64,000 nucleotides of DNA from Bacteroidota bacterium (GTDB lineage Bacteria; Bacteroidota; Bacteroidia; Bacteroidales; NBLH01): assembly GCA_025361565.1 (NCBI GenBank), contig JANYKN010000089.1, forward strand, positions 1 to 64,000, read 5' to 3'. Shown in pieces: positions 2,068-56,235 of the stretch. The notes below the pieces were generated by a model. The model saw nothing but the letters and a program-made list of their open reading frames with translations. It searched no databases and was not told where the DNA came from. Every line of letters starts with the position of its first letter. The first letter of the stretch is position 1. Both the position numbers and the translations under genes were made by a program.

Positions 2068-2868
2068 ATGATGGCATTAAAACAAAAATATGGACTGCTA
2101 GCATTGGTTGCAGGAGCTTCCGAAGGAATCGGGGCTGCTTTCTCCCATTATCTTGCAGCTGCAGGAATGGATCTTATACTTGTAGCCAGACGAAAGGAAC
2201 CATTGGAACAATTGGCTGCTTTGCTAAGAAATAAATACCTGATAAATGTAGAATGTATCAATTGTGATTTGTCTGAAAATAATGCAGCACAAACAATAAA
2301 AGAAGCCATAAATGACAAAGAAATCAATTTGTTGGTATATAATGCAGCCCTTTCATACATTGGTCGTTTTGAACAAAACAGCATTGAATATCACAACAAA
2401 ATAGCATACACCAATATGATTACTCCAATGAACATGCTCCATATTTTTGGAGAATCTATGCTTAATAATGGGAGTGGTGCACTGATTATCATGGCTTCTT
2501 TGGCGGGATTTCAAGGAAGTGGATATTTGGCTACTTATGCTGCAACAAAAGCTTTTAGCAGGGTTTTAGCAGAAAGTCTATGGTACGAATGGAAAAATCG
2601 TGGAGTGGATGTTATTGCTTGTTGTGCCGGTGCCACTTCTACCCAAAATTTTATCGACACAAATCCTGAAAAAGCAGGTTTCTTTGCACCAAGGGTTCAA
2701 ACTCCCGAAGAAGTTGTAGAAGAATGTATGAACCATTTAGGAAAAAAACCATCGTTTGTTACAGGCCGTGGAAATAAGATTGCAAGTTTTATTATGCAAA
2801 AATTATTGCCACGTAAAATGGCCATCAACATTATGGGCGATAATACCAAAAAAATGTATAGATTGTAG
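2068..2868 (+). CDS. Short-chain dehydrogenase/reductase (SDR)
   Basis: This is a classical 266-residue SDR, a soluble NAD(P)-dependent oxidoreductase with a Rossmann fold. The cofactor glycine motif is AGASEGIG at residues 15-22, the structural NAA motif is at 92-94, and the catalytic set is Ser144, Tyr157 and Lys161. Two adjacent ATG codons (2068 and 2071) can start it. The C-terminal ~60 residues look like the membrane-associated SDR group that includes 3-ketosteroid and 3-ketoacyl-CoA reductases, so a lipid substrate is plausible. It is convergent with a sterol-reductase homolog 30 bases away, which hints at lipid or isoprenoid chemistry. The substrate cannot be read from the sequence. 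Confidence 0.85.
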   Translation: MMALKQKYGLLALVAGASEGIGAAFSHYLAAAGMDLILVARRKEPLEQLAALLRNKYLINVECINCDLSENNAAQTIKEAINDKEINLLVYNAALSYIGRFEQNSIEYHNKIAYTNMITPMNMLHIFGESMLNNGSGALIIMASLAGFQGSGYLATYAATKAFSRVLAESLWYEWKNRGVDVIACCAGATSTQNFIDTNPEKAGFFAPRVQTPEEVVEECMNHLGKKPSFVTGRGNKIASFIMQKLLPRKMAINIMGDNTKKMYRL

Positions 2869-2898
2869 ACTTGACTAACTTCAAACAATTTGTAATAC

Positions 2899-3984
2899 CT
2901 AATAAACAAAAGGAATAATCCTGTAAGGAACTTTTTTAATATATTGCTCCCAAAGCGTTCCGTATTTTATAGCACATCGCTTATCATCATCCAATTGTCG
3001 GGCTCCCAGAAGAAGAACATAGTACAAAGGATAGAGCCACGGCCAAACCAGGAACGGATGTCCCACACAAAGTACAATACCAATGGCCATTCCTATTTCT
3101 CCCAAATAATTAATATGTCTGCTTAATCCCCAAAAACCATTTACCAATAAAGTTCTGTTCCCATCTGTAATTGATTGGGGTCTTATCCCTAAAAAAGGTC
3201 TTTGTGAATCTTTTTTAAAAAAGTACTTTTGTAAATTAGCTCCCCGCGACAAACTCCAGCTGCCAAAGAATATCAAGCCATAAATTAACAATAAGTATGT
3301 GGGAGTTTGTGCATTCTCTAATTCTACCGTTGACCATAAGGGAATTGAATAGAAAAAAGGATAAAATGCGATACATCCCCATCCAAGCTTAAAACCGACT
3401 CTTTCTGCTACAAAATCGTACGTATAAAGATGTACTTCCTCAAAGGTAAGATAATCCAAGATGAAAAAAGTGAGTAGGGCAGTGGCCATATAAATGCCAT
3501 GAGAAGCCTTGTCTCCAAACAAGATATAATGTTCAGCCGCAAAGCTTAGTATATTAAGTTCCAACATGATGGCACCAACCAAATAAAGCCACATTTTGGC
3601 ATCTATTCTTCCACCCCAAAGCTGTGGATTCTCCAATCTTCCTAAAAAGAAATCGGCCAAAAAATACTTTTTAACCGCAGCATGTGGCAAAACCATAGAA
3701 AATGAAAAAATCAAGCCAAAGGTAACCGCTCCAGCAAGCATATACCACCTAAATGTATAAAACCAATTCCATGGCATTAGACCGAAATAGCTTATTAAAA
3801 TCCATGTAAAAATCACGGTGAAAAGTACCAATAGTCCATTTAACCTGTACTTAAGTTTTTCATTGGAATCTTTCTTGTTTACATAACCTACAACCCAATG
3901 GCCGGGCATTACGGCATTTAATATAAAAATGAAGACGTATACCATTGTAGGCATTAAAAATCCAATTAGTTTTTCCATTTCCAT
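2899..3984 (-). CDS. ERG4/ERG24-family sterol reductase homolog (membrane protein)
   Basis: The 361-residue protein is polytopic, with about nine or ten hydrophobic segments. Near the C-terminus (around 276-295) it has the family signature region, GFWGLSRHINYLGE, corresponding to the G-W-G-hR-H-x-N-Y-hG-D/E block of C14 and C24(28) sterol reductases. It ends with YIKKVPYRIIPFVY, matching the family's R-V-P-Y-R-I-I-P terminus. Acidic DDDKR precedes it. These enzymes use NADPH to reduce double bonds in sterol rings or side chains inside membranes. Bacterial homologs exist but are uncommon in Bacteroidota. No squalene monooxygenase, oxidosqualene cyclase or CYP51 is in the window, so the true substrate may be another polycyclic or isoprenoid lipid. 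Family call is strong, reaction is inferred. Confidence 0.82.
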   Translation of the reverse strand: MEMEKLIGFLMPTMVYVFIFILNAVMPGHWVVGYVNKKDSNEKLKYRLNGLLVLFTVIFTWILISYFGLMPWNWFYTFRWYMLAGAVTFGLIFSFSMVLPHAAVKKYFLADFFLGRLENPQLWGGRIDAKMWLYLVGAIMLELNILSFAAEHYILFGDKASHGIYMATALLTFFILDYLTFEEVHLYTYDFVAERVGFKLGWGCIAFYPFFYSIPLWSTVELENAQTPTYLLLIYGLIFFGSWSLSRGANLQKYFFKKDSQRPFLGIRPQSITDGNRTLLVNGFWGLSRHINYLGEIGMAIGIVLCVGHPFLVWPWLYPLYYVLLLGARQLDDDKRCAIKYGTLWEQYIKKVPYRIIPFVY

Positions 3985-48987: not shown

Positions 48988-51084
48988 ATGAAAAGGAAAA
49001 TTATAGTGTATGTTTTGCCTGTTCTGGTTTTGGGGATTTTTGCATTTACTTTATTGAGTAGTGGCAAAAAGGAAAAAATTTTATTGGAAGTTGTTTCAAA
49101 GAGTTTAGAAAGTGGTCATTTCGAAGCATATAATGTGGATCGGAATATGTCGGATCGAATTTATAAATTATATTTGGAAAGTCTCGACTATAGCAAAAGA
49201 TACTTGCTAAAGGAAGATGTTGATAATCTTGAGAAATATCGATTTAAACTTGATGAAGAGATTAAAGGAGCTAAATTTGATTTTTTTGATTTAAGTGTAA
49301 AAATAATCAATCAGAGACTTAAGGAAACGGAATCAATTTACAAAGAAATTTTAGATAAACCTTTCGATTTTGAGAAGAACGAAATGTTTGAAACTGATCC
49401 TAAAAAGATGGATTTTCCGAAAAATGATAAGGAAAGAACTGAGCGTTGGAGGCAATTATTAAAATATCAAACCATGGTGAAGCTTAGTGATTTACTTACC
49501 ATTCAGGAAAATGCTATAAAAGATAAAGATACTACTTATAAAGTATTGGATTTCAAAGAATTGGAAAGTAAAGCAAGAGAAGCTCTTAAAACAGACTACA
49601 GTGAGTTATATCGTAGATTGTATCAGGTGGATGAAAAAGATCGATTAGACGCTTACCTCAATTCTTATATCGGAAGCTATGATCCGCACTCGGAATATAT
49701 GCAACCAAAGGAAAAAGAAACTTTCGATATCAATTTTTCAGGTCAACTCGAAGGAATTGGTGCTCAATTACAAGAGCAAAATGGATATATTAAAGTTGCA
49801 AGCATTGTTCCTGGTAGTCCTTCTTGGAAGCAAGGTGACTTAAAGGCTGGAGATATTATTCTAAAAGTGGCCCAGGGAAATGCTGAACCTTTGAGTTTAG
49901 TAGACATGCGAATTGATGATGCGGTTCAATACATAAGGGGGAAGAAGGGAACCGAAGTGCGCCTAACTGTTAAGAAGCCAGATGCTTCTATTTCTGTCAT
50001 TTCTATTATTCGCGATATTGTGGTTCTTGAAGAAACATACGCCAAATCAGCGATAGTCAAAGTTAATGGTTCTTCAAAAAGATATGGATATATTTACCTG
50101 CCTACATTCTATGCTGATTTTAATGACAGGAATGGAAGACGTTGCGCAACAGATGTAGCCTTTGAAGTAGAAAAATTAAAAAAAGAAGATATCGATGGTA
50201 TTATACTCGATTTAAGAAATAATGGAGGAGGTTCATTGTCGGATGTAGTTGAAATGGCTGGATTGTTTATCAAAGACGGCCCAATTGTTCAGGTAAAATC
50301 ACGCGGCGGTGCTCCTTATATTTGGAAAGACACAGATACCAGGATTCAATACGATGGAGATCTGGTGTTAATGGTAAATACGCTAAGTGCTTCAGCTTCA
50401 GAAATTTTAGCTGCAGCTATGCAAGATTATAGTCGCGCCGTGGTTGTAGGAGCACCAACAACTTTTGGTAAAGGAACTGTTCAAAGAATTATCGATTTGG
50501 ATGATTTTGTAGGCGATTCTTATTCAGATGTAAAGCCATTAGGGGCTCTTAGGCTTACCACACAAAAATTCTATAGGATTAATGGTGGCGCTACCCAACT
50601 TAAGGGTGTTGTTCCAGATATTATATTGCCAGATGTGTATGGAGCTATTGATATTGGTGAGAAAGAATTAGATAATGTTATTCCCTGGGATGAGATTTCA
50701 TCAGTTGCATATAAAAAATGGTCTTTACCTGCTACCAATATGCTTGAACTTAAAGGAAATAGCGAAGCAAGGATTGCTAAAAGCAGTACTTTTCAAATGG
50801 TGAAAGAGAATTCGGAAAGATTGATGAAACAAAAAGGGTTAACTAAATATAGTTTAAACTTAAAAGTTTATAGACAAGAACAGGCCAAATTGAAAGATGA
50901 AGGAAAAAAATACGAGAAGATGTTGGAAGCTCAAACAAAGCTTGAAACTTTTTCACTCACAGATGATTTGAAAAAAATGGAAAGTGATAGCATTAAATTG
51001 GCTTCAGCAAAAGTATGGCAATCGGATTTAAAGAAAGATGCTTATCTCGAAGAAGCTGTGTTTATTATGCAGGAAATCAAATAG
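48988..51084 (+). CDS. Carboxy-terminal processing (tail-specific) protease, S41A
   Basis: The 698-residue protease has an N-terminal signal/anchor (~5-25), a long helical region with SLDYSKRYLL, a PDZ domain near ~235-330 (GAQLQEQNGYIKVASIVPGSPSWK) and the S41 catalytic domain with Ser469 (LSASASEI) and Lys495 (TFGKGTVQ). The C-terminal ~110 residues are the DUF3340-type tail of Prc/Tsp. It degrades or trims periplasmic proteins by their C-termini. It is a single gene. Confidence 0.93.
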   Translation: MKRKIIVYVLPVLVLGIFAFTLLSSGKKEKILLEVVSKSLESGHFEAYNVDRNMSDRIYKLYLESLDYSKRYLLKEDVDNLEKYRFKLDEEIKGAKFDFFDLSVKIINQRLKETESIYKEILDKPFDFEKNEMFETDPKKMDFPKNDKERTERWRQLLKYQTMVKLSDLLTIQENAIKDKDTTYKVLDFKELESKAREALKTDYSELYRRLYQVDEKDRLDAYLNSYIGSYDPHSEYMQPKEKETFDINFSGQLEGIGAQLQEQNGYIKVASIVPGSPSWKQGDLKAGDIILKVAQGNAEPLSLVDMRIDDAVQYIRGKKGTEVRLTVKKPDASISVISIIRDIVVLEETYAKSAIVKVNGSSKRYGYIYLPTFYADFNDRNGRRCATDVAFEVEKLKKEDIDGIILDLRNNGGGSLSDVVEMAGLFIKDGPIVQVKSRGGAPYIWKDTDTRIQYDGDLVLMVNTLSASASEILAAAMQDYSRAVVVGAPTTFGKGTVQRIIDLDDFVGDSYSDVKPLGALRLTTQKFYRINGGATQLKGVVPDIILPDVYGAIDIGEKELDNVIPWDEISSVAYKKWSLPATNMLELKGNSEARIAKSSTFQMVKENSERLMKQKGLTKYSLNLKVYRQEQAKLKDEGKKYEKMLEAQTKLETFSLTDDLKKMESDSIKLASAKVWQSDLKKDAYLEEAVFIMQEIK

Positions 51085-51146
51085 TGTTTTTAATTACCTG
51101 ATTATAAGCATATTAGTATTTTTTAAAGAAATATACAATTAAAAGG

Positions 51147-52184
51147 TCAATTAGCTGCTTCAATAATTTTCATTTTGATATTTTTAATAAGCGATGGGCC
51201 TTCGTAAATAAAGCCGGTGTAGAGTTGAACCAGACTTGCACCGGCTTCTATTTTTTCAATTGCATCTTCGGGACACATAATTCCACCAACTCCAATCACA
51301 GGAACCACCGAATTGGTTTTTTTAACAATATACTTTATAATTTCAGTTGACCTTTTGGTTAATGGTTTTCCACTTAAACCTCCGGCACCGATCTTTTCAA
51401 TTTCATTTGCTGTGTATGATAAATTATCTCTTTTTATAGTCGTATTGCTTGCAATTATTCCACTTGTTCCTGTTTCCAATACAATTTCAATAATGTCATC
51501 GAGTTGTTCATTGCTCAAATCCGGTGCAATTTTTAATAAAATTGGTTTTGGTTTTGGCATTTCCAAATTAATTGATTTTAGCGTATTTAATAGTTTTTTC
51601 AGAGGTTCTTTTTCTTGCAACTCCCTTAGATTAGGAGTATTTGGAGAACTAATGTTGATTGCAAAATAATCGACATATGGATAAAGTGATCTGAACCCAA
51701 TACTATAATCCTCAATTGCGTTTTCATTTGGGGTCAATTTATTTTTGCCTATATTCCCGCCAATAATTATTTTCGATTTTTTCTTTCTTAATTTCTTAAC
51801 AGCTTGTTCAACTCCTTTGTTATTAAATCCCATACGGTTGATAAGTGCTTGATCTTTCTTTAAGCGAAATGCTCTGGGTTTGGGATTACCTGGCTGACCA
51901 ATAGGTGTCAATGTTCCAATTTCTATAAATCCAAATCCAAGATAGCCTAGCATATCAAAGGCAACTGCATCTTTATCAAGTCCGGCAGCAAGACCAATTG
52001 GATTGGGAAATTTTATACCAAAAAGTTCCCGTTCAAGAGCTGGGTGCTTGAGTTCGAATATTTTTCTGGTAATCAAACCGATTCCAGGAATTGCAATTGC
52101 TAACTTGAAACATAAAAAAGTAAAGTTGTGAATTTTTTCAGGATCAAATTGAAAAAGAATAGGACGGATAATTGTTTTGTACAT
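51147..52184 (-). CDS. Dihydroorotate dehydrogenase (quinone)
   Basis: The start is ATG 52184 ([21 protein letters not shown]), giving 345 residues; a longer frame adds an unconserved stretch. Class 2 features are clear: the N-terminal membrane-contact helices, [43 protein letters not shown], and [20 protein letters not shown] with the FMN phosphate site. It oxidises dihydroorotate to orotate in pyrimidine synthesis and passes electrons to quinone at the membrane. Confidence 0.95.
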
Positions 52185-52782
52185 AATTTTTTTTTCGGTT
52201 GCAAATATAAATAACAAATCAGTTTGAAAAAATCAGTTTGTAAATTTTGTAATATGTACCTAAGAAAAATCTAAATCTTTGAAAAAGTTCAAAATCAAGT
52301 AATATTTGCCAAAATGCAATTCTTTTGATCTAACTTAATATGTATAGTATTGTATATCTGCATATTAATTTAAAATTATTGTTGATTGATATTTGACTTT
52401 TGTAAACAAGACTTAACTCAATGAGAATTGGATATTCTAGCCTTTGGTACATAATGTAAAAAAATATAGAAATCTCAGTGAGTTAAGTTTTCAATATTTT
52501 CTTTAAGGATCATCTCATTTCTATCACATCAGGCAATTTTAAATCGACATAAAAAGTTGAATATTTGAAAATTCTAATCTTTTTAGGAAAGTACGAAATT
52601 TTAAACTATTTCACAGAAATGTACTTCATCACAAATGTTAAATATAATAAAAATGATTGTTTACATATGAAACCGAAATTTTGGTTTTATGAAATTTAGT
52701 AATAAGTGTAAACTTTAAATATTATAAACTAGAACTTATTTTCGCTCTTACTTTGTATAGGATTCTTAATTCTGCAATTTGT
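52185..52782. other. Gene-free region with a long inverted repeat
   Basis: The 598-bp stretch between pyrD and the XRE gene holds no plausible gene. It contains a 21-base imperfect inverted repeat (52409-52429 and 52470-52490), a short palindrome AAACC...GGTTT at 52670-52688 and one degenerate copy of the XRE-region motif at 52630-52641. Confidence 0.6.
52409..52490. repeat. 21-base inverted repeat with 40-base loop
   Basis: Arms at 52409-52429 and 52470-52490 match at 18 of 21 positions (core ACTTAACTCA-N-TGAGA). Each arm also carries its own CTCA-N-TGAG palindrome. It looks like a small structured RNA or a miniature mobile repeat; I see no flanking target duplication. Confidence 0.6.
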
Positions 52783-53217
52783 TTAATCCTTTGATTCTTT
52801 TTCCGGTTTCATTTCTTCAAAAGTATTGTCATCATAAAAGACCACAATCTTTTTAATTGAACGTCTTTTTAGTTCTTTAGTATTCGTTTCCTGAGCAACC
52901 GGAACTTGTGTTTTAGGTTCAAATAATGGTGGTGAAATTGTAATAGGAGCATTTTCTTTTTTAATATCGAAACTTATTTGCGTTTGGTTAGATTGGATAA
53001 ACATTTCACCTTTTCCCAAAATTAGCCAGTCAGAATTTAATGTAGGAAAATTTGATAAAATTTTTTGCAGAAAATCAAGGCTCGGTTTGTTACGTCCGGA
53101 TAGAATATGTGAAATGCTCGACCGTTGCACTCCAACCAAATCAGCAAACTTCGAAGACGAAAGGTTTTGTCTGGTTAGCAACTTTAAAATTCGATCTTTT
53201 ATTTCAATTTCACTCAT
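52783..53217 (-). CDS. XRE-family helix-turn-helix transcriptional regulator
   Basis: The start is ATG 53217 (MSEIEIKDRILKLL), giving 144 residues. A Cro/C1-type helix-turn-helix fills ~residues 5-65 (LSSSKFADLVGVQRSSISHILSGRNKPSLDFL), followed by LNSDWLILGKGEMF, typical of a Bacteroidota XRE group. The C-terminal half is a low-complexity linker with a Lys/Arg-rich, then acidic end. It has no LexA-like peptidase. Several TTACA-N2-TGTAA sites lie on its promoter side, one next to the start codon, so it probably controls its own expression. Confidence 0.88.
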   Translation of the reverse strand: MSEIEIKDRILKLLTRQNLSSSKFADLVGVQRSSISHILSGRNKPSLDFLQKILSNFPTLNSDWLILGKGEMFIQSNQTQISFDIKKENAPITISPPLFEPKTQVPVAQETNTKELKRRSIKKIVVFYDDNTFEEMKPEKESKD

Positions 53218-53218
53218 G

Positions 53219-53286
53219 TTACAAATGTAATAATTATAATGTTTACATAAGTAACTTTTGTAAACAATCATTATTCACAAATGTAA
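53219..53286. promoter_or_regulatory. Operator-like motif cluster at the XRE promoter
   Basis: Three sites: TTACAAATGTAA at 53219-53230 (perfect), TTACATAAGTAA at 53243-53254 and TCACAAATGTAA at 53275-53286. The first lies beside the XRE start codon. The third contains a minus-strand -7 element (TACATTTG) with TTG 22 bases upstream, so a protein bound there would cover the promoter. Confidence 0.6.
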
Positions 53287-53666
53287 TTTAAATCAATAAA
53301 AAAATATCAAGAATATAGCTATTTGAAATTGCTTTATTATCCTAATATTCATATTTCGTTGCTAATTTTTGAATTTAATTACAATTACTGCTAAAATATT
53401 GAAATTTAATCATCTAAAAATAATATTAAAGATTTTTATCCATATAAAAATATTTAAAACTTGAATAAAAGAGCCTCTAATAACCATTTTAAAGGTTAAA
53501 TCACCTATTTAATTCATTATTCCAATTAAAAATATCAAAACACTATGTTTTAACGTATTAAAATCATTTGATGAATCAAAAAATCAATAAAAATTTAAAA
53601 ATTCAAGAACAACTTTATCAAAATGCAACTTAATTATTGGATATCAGACAATTAACTCATAATAAA

Positions 53667-53906
53667 TTACATATGTATACATTCATTTGAATATAGCACT
53701 ATATTTATAATAATTACTTCAAGTATTACTTGTTTTTTTGATTGCAAAATACTGATATATTGATCATAACATCAATAAAAATATCTATATATAACGACAT
53801 TTAGAATTAATTACAAATGTTATCGATGTTTTGTTTGAATTGTAAGAATTTTTATGATTACAAATGTAAAAAAACATGACAATTCGACAAAAGTTTACAA
53901 ATGTAT
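53667..53906. promoter_or_regulatory. Second cluster of the TTACA-N2-TGTAA motif
   Basis: TTACATATGTAT at 53667-53678, TTACAAATGTTA at 53811-53822, TTACAAATGTAA at 53858-53869 (perfect) and TTACAAATGTAT at 53895-53906. All are 11/12 or 12/12 matches. They lie between the XRE gene and the fabG promoter. Confidence 0.55.
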
Positions 53907-53999
53907 ATTTATGTACGTTTTCTGAAATTGTAATTTTATTCATTCTCAAATTTGAATTTCCTGCTCCTTTTATATTTTTTTACTTTCTTTCATTTCGAA

Positions 54000-54030
54000 T
54001 TTGTATTTCAATTCTATCGGATTATTTTTG
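54000..54030 (+). promoter_or_regulatory. Consensus promoter for fabG
   Basis: TTTG at 54000-54003, a 19-base spacer and TATTTTTG at 54023-54030 match the Bacteroidota consensus exactly. The leader to fabG would be about 190 bases. Confidence 0.55.
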
Positions 54031-54224
54031 TACAATCATTCTTTTGATATTTTAAAATTTTTTAATCATTTATGTATTTTTCCATTTCATGAGAAATTGG
54101 ATTTATTAACAATGCTTATTATTTATTTAAACAATAATTAATCATAACATCTATTTACAGATTCGGATTAACTGATTTTGAGATGTTGGAATAGTTATAT
54201 TATAAACAATTAAAAATTAGAAAT

Positions 54225-54971
54225 ATGAAATTACTAGAAGGAAAAACCGCAATTATTACTGGGGCTGCTCGTGGAATTGGACGTGCAGTTGCTATAAATT
54301 TTGCCAAAAACGGCGCCAATGTTGCGTTTACAGATATGAGAGTTGATGATAATTTTGTATCCTTGGAAAAGGAATTGGCTGACTTAGGAGTTAAAGGTAA
54401 GGGATATACTTCGGATGCATCGAATTTTCAACAATCGCAAGAGCTTGTAGTAAAAATTGTTGAAGATTTTGGTAAAGTTGATATTCTGATAAATAATGCT
54501 GGTATTACACGCGATACATTATTGATGAAAATGACTGAGGAACAGTGGGATTTGGTACTTACTGTTAATCTTAAATCAGCATTTAACCTCACAAAGGCTG
54601 TAATTGGCCCAATGATGAAACAACGATTTGGTTCTATTGTTAACATGAGCTCAATTGTAGGTGTTGGTGGTAATGCGGCACAAGCTAATTACTCAGCATC
54701 AAAAGCTGGAATGATTGGTTTAACAAAGTCTACCGCTAAAGAATTGGGATCTCGTAATATCAGATGCAATGCAATTGCACCAGGCTTTATTATTACGGAT
54801 ATGACTGCTGCCCTTCCTGAGAAAGTAATTGAGGAGTGGACAAAAAGTATTCCAATGAAACGTGGCGGAACAGCAGATGAAGTTGCCAATACTGCTTTAT
54901 TTCTTGCGTCTGATTTATCTTCTTATGTAAGTGGGCAAGTTATACAGGTTACAGGCGCTATGTTGATATAA
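54225..54971 (+). CDS. 3-oxoacyl-ACP reductase FabG
   Basis: The 248-residue SDR has the TGAARGIG cofactor motif at residues 12-19, NNAGITRDTLLMKMTEEQWD (a FabG hallmark), Ser143, Tyr156 and Lys160 (NYSASKAG), and a PGFIITDMT segment. It reduces 3-ketoacyl-ACP with NADPH in fatty-acid elongation. The closely related acetoacetyl-CoA reductase (PhaB) cannot be excluded. It is the only fatty-acid gene here and is followed by an unrelated cell-wall hydrolase. Confidence 0.92.
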   Translation: MKLLEGKTAIITGAARGIGRAVAINFAKNGANVAFTDMRVDDNFVSLEKELADLGVKGKGYTSDASNFQQSQELVVKIVEDFGKVDILINNAGITRDTLLMKMTEEQWDLVLTVNLKSAFNLTKAVIGPMMKQRFGSIVNMSSIVGVGGNAAQANYSASKAGMIGLTKSTAKELGSRNIRCNAIAPGFIITDMTAALPEKVIEEWTKSIPMKRGGTADEVANTALFLASDLSSYVSGQVIQVTGAMLI

Positions 54972-55062
54972 TTGCCAATATAATTGAGAATCTGTTATTT
55001 GGAGGTTTAAAGATTTATTCATATATTACGGCTCATTAAAGCTTTAAACTAAAAAATTGAAT

Positions 55063-56235
55063 ATGGCTAAAATGCTTACAAAACCAGATCAAATAGGCGA
55101 ATCCACAAGGAAACCTTTTGAAGAAAAAGCTATAATTATGAAAGGAAAAGTAATTGCCAACGTATTAAATATCAGGGCTCAAGCCAGCAAAGATGGAGAC
55201 ATCGTAGGTAAACTAGGTAAAGACGATTTGGTCGATATTATTGCACTGAAAGATAGTTGGTACGAAATCAAATTCAAAGATTCAAGTGCTTTTGTATTTG
55301 GAGAATTTATTGAAGAGTTGGTTAAACAGGGAATAGTAAATGTAAATCTATTGAATATCAGGAATTTGCCTAATAAAGATGCTGATAAAATTGATCAGAT
55401 TACTATGAATGTTGAAGTTGTCATAGTTGATGAAATCGATGATTGGTATAAAATCAAGTATAAAGATGGCTTTGGTTACGTATTTGCAGATTTTATTACT
55501 ATTAAAGATTCAAAGGACGCTCGGAGATATCTTTTTCAAGATGTTGAATTATTAAGAACTACCCTTGAACCTTCAAAGAAAATTGATGAATCAGGGAATC
55601 GAATCCAATCAATCGTTAAATCGGCATATAATAAATATGGCAATTTACTGAGTGTTTTAAGCAGCAAGCTTGGAATTGATTTGGCTGCTTCTATTGCGGT
55701 TTTAAGTGTTGAAAGTGGCGGGGTTGGTATCGATAAAGGACGCGTATTAATTAGATTTGAAAACCATCTTTTTTACCGATATTGGGGTAAAAACAATGAA
55801 GAAGTTTACCAAAAACATTTTAAATTTGATACAGGTAAAAACTGGCTGGGTCATCAGTTTAGAAAAGATCCTGAAGGTGAATGGATTGATTTTCACGGTG
55901 ATCAGAATAAAGAATATGAAGCTTTGAATTTTGCCAGGAGTCTGGATAATGAAAAGGCTCTGCTCTCAATAAGTATGGGATTACCTCAAATTTTAGGAAG
56001 TAACTCTAAACTTGTTGGTTATAATTCTGCCCAGGAAATGTTTGACAATTTTACTAAAGACATTAGATATCATGTTTTTGCATTGTTCGATTTCTTCAGT
56101 CCTGAAATGATTCAATTTTTGAAAAACAAGCAATTTGTCAATTTTGCAGAACACTATAATGGACAGGGACAAGCACGAAATTATGGAAAGTTTATTCAGG
56201 ATTACTATGAAGCATTTCCTACTAATCTTTTATAG
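55063..56235 (+). CDS. N-acetylmuramidase with two bacterial SH3 domains
   Basis: I start it at ATG 55063 (MAKMLTKPDQ), giving 390 residues. Two SH3-like domains lie at ~25-85 (LNIRAQASKDGDIVGKL) and ~92-150 (LNIRNLPNKDADKIDQ). The catalytic domain, ~180-390, is the N-acetylmuramidase family (DUF3380), with the likely catalytic Glu217 in LSVESGG and GRVLIRFENHLFYRYW, and it ends with HYNGQGQARNYGKFI. It cuts the glycan backbone of peptidoglycan. There is no signal peptide, so it would need a holin, lysis or an unconventional exporter to reach its substrate. Confidence 0.88.
   Translation: MAKMLTKPDQIGESTRKPFEEKAIIMKGKVIANVLNIRAQASKDGDIVGKLGKDDLVDIIALKDSWYEIKFKDSSAFVFGEFIEELVKQGIVNVNLLNIRNLPNKDADKIDQITMNVEVVIVDEIDDWYKIKYKDGFGYVFADFITIKDSKDARRYLFQDVELLRTTLEPSKKIDESGNRIQSIVKSAYNKYGNLLSVLSSKLGIDLAASIAVLSVESGGVGIDKGRVLIRFENHLFYRYWGKNNEEVYQKHFKFDTGKNWLGHQFRKDPEGEWIDFHGDQNKEYEALNFARSLDNEKALLSISMGLPQILGSNSKLVGYNSAQEMFDNFTKDIRYHVFALFDFFSPEMIQFLKNKQFVNFAEHYNGQGQARNYGKFIQDYYEAFPTNLL

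Follow-up and report, generated by a model that had tools for sequence, protein, structure and literature searches.

The window, that is, the whole 64-kb stretch of DNA that we analysed, carries a minus-strand gene for a small XRE-family regulator, P0001, set in noncoding AT-rich flanks, which measure ~570 bp on the pyrD side and ~1000 bp on that of a short-chain dehydrogenase gene. Sites resembling the palindrome TTACA-N2-TGTAA lie around the gene. The features of the region are the following, with operator positions also given relative to the XRE start:

51147..52184 (-): pyrD, dihydroorotate dehydrogenase, 3' of the XRE gene (Pfam DHO_dh, E 3.6e-84)
52629..52711: weak sites 3' of the XRE gene, at 52629 and 52700 (2 mismatches) and 52661 (1 mismatch); doubtful members of the operator set
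52783..53217 (-): XRE/HTH_3 regulator P0001, 144 aa
53219..53230: predicted proximal operator, TTACAAATGTAA, exact, -13
53243..53254: predicted proximal operator, TTACATAAGTAA, 1 mismatch, -37
53275..53286: predicted proximal operator, TCACAAATGTAA, 1 mismatch, -69; its minus strand includes the putative -7 box TACATTTG
53278..53310 (-): putative XRE promoter, TTG, 22 bp, TACATTTG, called by its match to TTG-N17-23-TAnnTTTG
53667..53678: predicted distal operator, TTACATATGTAT, 1 mismatch, -461
53703..53731 (+): weak reversed match to element E, described below (14.0 bits, E 0.0044 for the window); not established as a copy of it
53811..53822: predicted distal operator, TTACAAATGTTA, 1 mismatch, -605
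53858..53869: predicted distal operator, TTACAAATGTAA, exact, -652
53895..53906: predicted distal operator, TTACAAATGTAT, 1 mismatch, -689
54225..54971 (+): short-chain dehydrogenase (FabG-like), divergent, upstream (Pfam adh_short_C2, E 5.6e-68)

Scanning the window with TTACANNTGTAA located sites with no or one mismatch at 53219, 53243, 53275, 53667, 53811, 53858 and 53895; those at 53219 and 53858 are exact copies of TTACA-N2-TGTAA. The preliminary description of this DNA had fitted eight sites, two of them exact, to one inverted repeat. Seven of them do fit, and the eighth, given as 52630, corresponds to TCACAAATGTTA at 52629–52640 and departs from the palindrome at two positions; the site at 52661 (TTACATATGAAA, one mismatch) was absent from its list. 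The reported concentration within 1.3 kb around the regulator also stands, with the correction that this DNA is not all non-coding, since it includes the XRE gene itself. Nor does the 53219 site touch the start codon, as base 53218 separates it from the ATG (53217–53215, minus strand).

Noncoding DNA flanking the XRE gene, 1584 bp in all, contains 2 exact sites and 8 when one mismatch is allowed. The expected means are 0.01 and 0.31, and none of 1000 Markov-1 simulations reached the observed counts. In the same DNA, TTACA ranked first among 1024 half-sites. The signal is local, because at up to two mismatches the whole window shows no excess (82 sites vs 75.5 expected). No site with one mismatch or fewer was found in the other 30 intergenic stretches of at least 100 bp in the window, the single "other" intergenic site in that count, 52661, belonging to the pyrD flank of the XRE gene. 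Windows of 1300 bp contained at most 2 sites anywhere outside 51000–55500, compared with 8 inside. In the 6.76-Mb genome as a whole, 19 exact places were found and 13 for the reversed control, and among the 15 of these 19 places that were examined (13 of them away from the locus), clustering was unique to the XRE locus. Equal density in other AT-rich intergenic DNA, which the preliminary description had named as contrary evidence, was not seen, so the operator reading survives that test.

P0001 consists of a five-helix HTH domain, a variable linker and a C-terminal beta hairpin. Its match to HTH_3 (PF01381) scored 38.5 bits, above the curated Pfam cut-off of 23, while Phage_CI_repr reached 14.4 bits, below its cut-off of 22, and Pfam searches up to E 1 detected no S24 domain. 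The fold of the AlphaFold model (mean pLDDT 83) resembles those of the 434, P22 and P2 repressors and of restriction controller (C) proteins, with no Foldseek match falling below E 0.001. Of 30 loci, 14 have pyrD as the downstream neighbour. Annotated records of Parabacteroides and Bacteroides show the gene order holA, gap, XRE, pyrK, pyrD, and there autoregulation of the XRE gene may also set pyrKD expression.

Within the order, 232 of the 295 genomes have an orthologue, nearly always as a single copy (a second match occurred in two), and orthologues were also detected in 46 of 60 relatives and in 37 of 38 genomes of one genus. The order thus has the XRE gene as a conserved chromosomal core gene. 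For comparison of the upstream regions, we collected 110 XRE loci, 107 of them non-redundant (L046, for example, duplicates the same-genus locus L017), and a further scan yielded at least 80 named loci, mostly from Bacteroidales with a few of Flavobacteriales type. One collected record, MT836585.1, was deposited as an unverified bacteriophage; at 2242–3198 it carries the XRE gene and both arrays of sites, together with transporter-like genes, and is probably a bacterial contig.

Upstream of the XRE gene, the noncoding gap is long, with a median of 825 bp over 77 loci, compared with 46 bp for the other gaps at the same loci (354 gaps, ORF-based). Across the 107 loci, site density per kb was 11.1 at -200..0, 2.8 at -400..-200, 4.2 at -600..-400, 1.8 at -800..-600 and 0–0.66 in the remaining bins, whereas 29 permuted half-sites gave about 0.10–0.18 (0.17 at -200..0 and 0.13 at -600..-400). 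At least one proximal site was present in 94 of 103 loci (permuted mean 3.4, maximum 10) and at least two in 78, while nine loci had none, and at least one distal site was present in 69 of 91 (permuted mean 5.7, maximum 16). Held-out loci (n = 53, after 7 duplicates were dropped from 60 fetched) gave the same picture, with proximal sites in 47 and distal sites in 39 against permuted means of 1.7 and 3.9. When all 5-mer palindromes with spacers of 0–8 were ranked without bias, TTACA-N2 came first both proximally (150 copies in 89 of 152 loci, 0.24 expected) and distally (81 copies in 61 of 143 loci, 0.41 expected). The distal array lies ~300–800 bp upstream of the gene among relatives and 450–690 bp upstream in the window, and three same-genus loci (L017–L019), all with the gene, share with the window the exact proximal positions -13, -37 and -69. 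Another three genomes of the same genus had no match to the gene at E ≤ 1e-10. Three loci (L023, L029 and L036) also contain an exact site inside the coding sequence, at +343 from the XRE start, and L036 a further one at +310.

The arrays are regular in their internal spacing. Among 287 adjacent-site distances of 18–75 bp, measured centre to centre, 101 are 23–24 bp and 39 are 34–35 bp. A longer operator and a second class of spacing were considered and not adopted. GTTTACA half-sites are enriched in the leaders as well (2.5 vs 0.27 per kb); 55 of the 216 found at -900..0 in the 107 leaders lie outside any full site with two mismatches or fewer. Bacteroides and Parabacteroides keep the XRE gene, with sites that are few or degenerate. 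In Parabacteroides, site loss coincides with a changed recognition helix (SSI to SAM or AAM): loci encoding QRSAMSH or QRAAMSH average 0.67 or 0.14 proximal sites, compared with 2.82 for QRSSISH. This pattern would fit binding by the XRE protein but is confounded with phylogeny.

Masked k-mers and alignments of related leaders yielded a second signal, an element of ~40 bp, ATAACCAGTATTTTATAnnnTTTATnTAAAGTAATAnTTTAAT (alignment A2), referred to here as element E. Its profile, built from 18 seeds and scanned over 121 leaders, matched at ≥8 bits 64 times on the XRE strand and never on the other, in 56 of the 121 leaders, seeds included; in 53 held-out leaders, 24 copies were on the XRE strand and 1 on the opposite strand. 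Of the 67 loci having both arrays, 57 carry the element between them. Tandem copies, in main and held-out loci together, are 104–106 bp (11 cases), 115–117 bp (10) or 127 bp (1) apart, with no other value at ≥5 bits, and lower cut-offs brought in a few other distances in the held-out set; L083, L092 and L100 are near relatives. Distances of 105, 116 and once 127 bp equal 10, 11 and 12 helical turns. The steps match about one DNA turn and are not multiples of three, which makes coding less likely and favours a protein complex along a single face of the helix. Folding gave no consensus RNA structure, and element E probably binds a second protein. Across 41 genomes, its best matches include XRE loci, eight of them outside the E model (G011, G012, G013, G014, G024, G025, G029 and G037), and the remaining matches look scattered; L187 (G006:C11) probably represents the leader of an XRE gene truncated at a contig end. 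Since the window has only a weak reversed match, these findings concern the family and not the window.

Does the motif extend beyond the locus? Close site pairs in 60 genomes fell on 18 contigs, 13 of which were the XRE contig and 5 not; among the 13, one pair lay inside the gene and one ~1.5 kb downstream. A control pattern for such pairs gave 4 matches in 3 genomes. Because site pairs elsewhere are near the control level, the main target of the XRE regulator seems to be its own locus. A wider regulon was considered and set aside, as exact TTACATTTGTAA places numbered 0–28 per genome across the 60 genomes, mostly near control. The exception was G022, with 28 exact places (both strands) against 6 for the control, and this genome may have a wider regulon. 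Two secondary clusters were isolated occurrences: four sites with one mismatch or fewer in G056 (G056:C42, 62–258), just 5' of a class-B acid phosphatase gene (PF03767) that is a possible second target there, and three tightly packed sites between divergent genes in G009 (G009:C6, 1454–1497), away from the XRE gene of that genome.

Taken together, the best explanation, and one we consider likely, is that TTACA-N2-TGTAA serves as operator for the XRE repressor encoded beside it, which would regulate its own gene through two arrays. The preliminary description had suggested a multi-site operator, and for the adjacent XRE protein this is the best reading. From the computed features, namely the motif, its local enrichment, conservation, spacing, promoter overlap and the lack of a large regulon, we infer protein–DNA binding, repression, cooperativity, looping and a second factor as follows. 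XRE dimers would bind the palindrome as a proximal array over their own promoter and leader and as a distal array. In the window, the proximal array would comprise the sites at -69, -37 and -13, of which the first overlies the -7 box of the putative promoter, and binding near the promoter would block RNA polymerase, giving negative autoregulation. The fixed spacings of 23–24 and 34–35 bp suggest cooperative contacts between neighbouring dimers, as at lambda OR. The distal array would most likely strengthen or gate repression, either through a DNA loop or through repression of a leftward promoter. The directional ~40-bp element that many relatives have between their arrays, frequently as two copies facing the same side of the helix, would probably recruit a second protein. 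Looping at the XRE locus is plausible; it is not supported by phase, because distances between distal and proximal arrays show no significant helical phasing (p 0.10). Phasing between element E and the distal array gave p 0.003 with a period of 9.7 in one of several tests, and was not used.

A variant compatible with this explanation concerns the distal array alone, which, instead of strengthening XRE autorepression, could control a separate leftward transcript (a small RNA or that of a divergent gene) which answers to the same repressor, in the manner of a two-promoter switch. We hold this idea tentatively. Opposite-strand promoters number 16 at -600..-400, where 3.3 are expected; several in relatives have their -7 box within an operator, and some occur even where the upstream gene is co-directional. 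However, distal sites accompany co-directional upstream genes (34 of 37 loci) as they do divergent ones (33 of 36), and leftward promoters and operators do not overlap in the window. Neither a structured RNA nor a conserved small ORF emerged as a product: Rfam found only tRNA and RNase P in 20 loci and nothing significant on the window stretch, and short ORFs in the leader proved to be fragments of neighbouring genes such as queA and holA.

The link between the XRE protein and the palindrome rests mainly on co-location, because the palindrome could belong to another factor regulating the gene. Such a regulator, global or local, would bind the motif and control the XRE gene while the XRE protein acts elsewhere, and element E shows that the region holds at least one further conserved signal in many relatives. 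We consider this unlikely. A global regulator should have many sites, whereas exact and paired sites are near control in most of the 60 genomes. The AlphaFold model also matches, in Foldseek, the domains of phage 434, P22 and C proteins, which bind palindromes. According to the available text of PMC12565409, XRE proteins commonly bind palindromes 5' of their own genes.

It is very improbable that most of the sites are simply -7 boxes (TAnnTTTG) belonging to overlapping promoters and form a palindrome only by the way. The promoter pattern used here, TTG-N17-23-TAnnTTTG, has the N17-23 spacing of Bacteroidetes promoters. Its TAnnTTTG/TTTG consensus, reported for the primary sigma factor of B. 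fragilis in the available portion of PMC7366714, is fitted by TACATTTG, and on the XRE strand the pattern occurs 31 times at -100..0 against 1.3 expected. Yet both half-sites are enriched at exactly N2, with 154 convergent TTACA/TGTAA pairs at that spacing and 31 at the next highest, which is the site-to-site distance. In addition, site-to-site spacing is fixed, and AA centres are as common as TT centres in the distal array. Only 18 of 36 predicted promoters within 200 bp of the XRE start have their -7 box inside an operator. The purely promoter-based reading that the preliminary description had raised therefore fails overall and holds in part at the proximal sites, where half-coincidence of this kind is found. 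A remnant of a prophage immunity region is hardly credible: PHROGs phage-repressor profiles match P0001 (E 1.8e-13) and its fold is like those of the 434, P22 and P2 repressors, but the gene is nearly always single copy across the order, its neighbours are pyrD, pyrK and holA, and its best "phage" match, a faecal contig without annotation, carries transporter-like genes along with both arrays, so that a prophage origin is largely refuted by the conserved chromosomal context. The earlier comparison with phage-type repressors thus holds as an analogy of mechanism and not of origin, the gene being conserved and chromosomal in the order.

Returning to the autoregulated XRE repressor with two arrays, we tentatively propose a broader role, which we put at somewhat below an even chance: a core Bacteroidales switch, in which a near-single-copy repressor would act almost only on its own locus. 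Its two arrays and a second protein on the phased ~40-bp elements would jointly form one nucleoprotein complex setting the level of the regulator, perhaps to work as a bistable switch or to sense pyrimidine or replication state, given the pyrK–pyrD and holA neighbours. Autoregulated XRE repressors are already well known; no account of this operator, of the order-wide two-array layout or of the helix-phased tandem element was found in the open-licence literature searched, supplements aside. With the palindrome, the regulator gains an operator that can be put to the test, and its conservation extends over most of the genomes sampled from an order abundant in human guts and in many sediments; the model strains of Bacteroides and Parabacteroides retain the gene with sites altered or missing. 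The puzzle is why a self-directed repressor keeps a region of ~800 bp, with two arrays and helix-phased elements, despite changed neighbours in some lineages.

Several known systems offer comparisons. C proteins of restriction-modification systems are small XRE autoregulators with clustered palindromes, and P0001 resembles them in its Foldseek matches to C.BclI and C.AhdI; unlike them, it has no restriction-modification system detected beside its gene, the annotated Parabacteroides and Bacteroides loci showing none nearby except a distant HsdR-N domain protein. Antitoxins of the HigA or HipB type were also considered and rejected: no adjacent toxin gene was found, no conserved small gene recurred among the neighbours of 30 loci (ORFs ≥90 aa), and NCBIfam antitoxin models scored far below cut-off.

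The LexA-like repressors of Bacteroidetes, as presented in the available text of PMC8565304, belong to the S24 family, control an SOS regulon and use operators of the form GGA-N5-TCC or CTAA-N5-TTAG; one reported site reads TTAC-AAATT-GTAA. The XRE system is like them in being a Bacteroidetes repressor with palindromic, putatively autoregulatory operators, and unlike them in lacking an S24 domain and in having a spacer one base shorter; an SOS-type regulon was not seen, paired sites elsewhere being near the control level. With autoregulated XRE-family regulators at large, it shares the palindrome 5' of its own gene, on the available text of PMC12565409, whose main text contains neither TTACA/TGTAA nor any word beginning with Bacteroid. 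Unlike XRE-family regulators generally, it has two arrays, a long noncoding leader and additional phased elements.

Parallels with phage repressors lie in mechanism. According to its modelled structure, the XRE protein has a lambda-repressor-like HTH fold, as do lambda CI, 434 and P22 c2. It differs from lambda CI in its length of 144 aa, with a linker and beta hairpin in place of an S24 peptidase or CI-type C-terminal domain, and its locus, unlike that of lambda, is free of phage genes. Phage CI-type repressors use closely spaced operators, neighbours in lambda OR being 23–24 bp apart, and the XRE spacings peak at 23–24 and 34–35 bp. Like lambda CI with OR and OL, the XRE locus combines several palindromic sites over its own promoter with a distant second array, here 0.3–0.8 kb away, compared with ~2.3 kb between the two lambda operator sets in the available text of PMC5880393.
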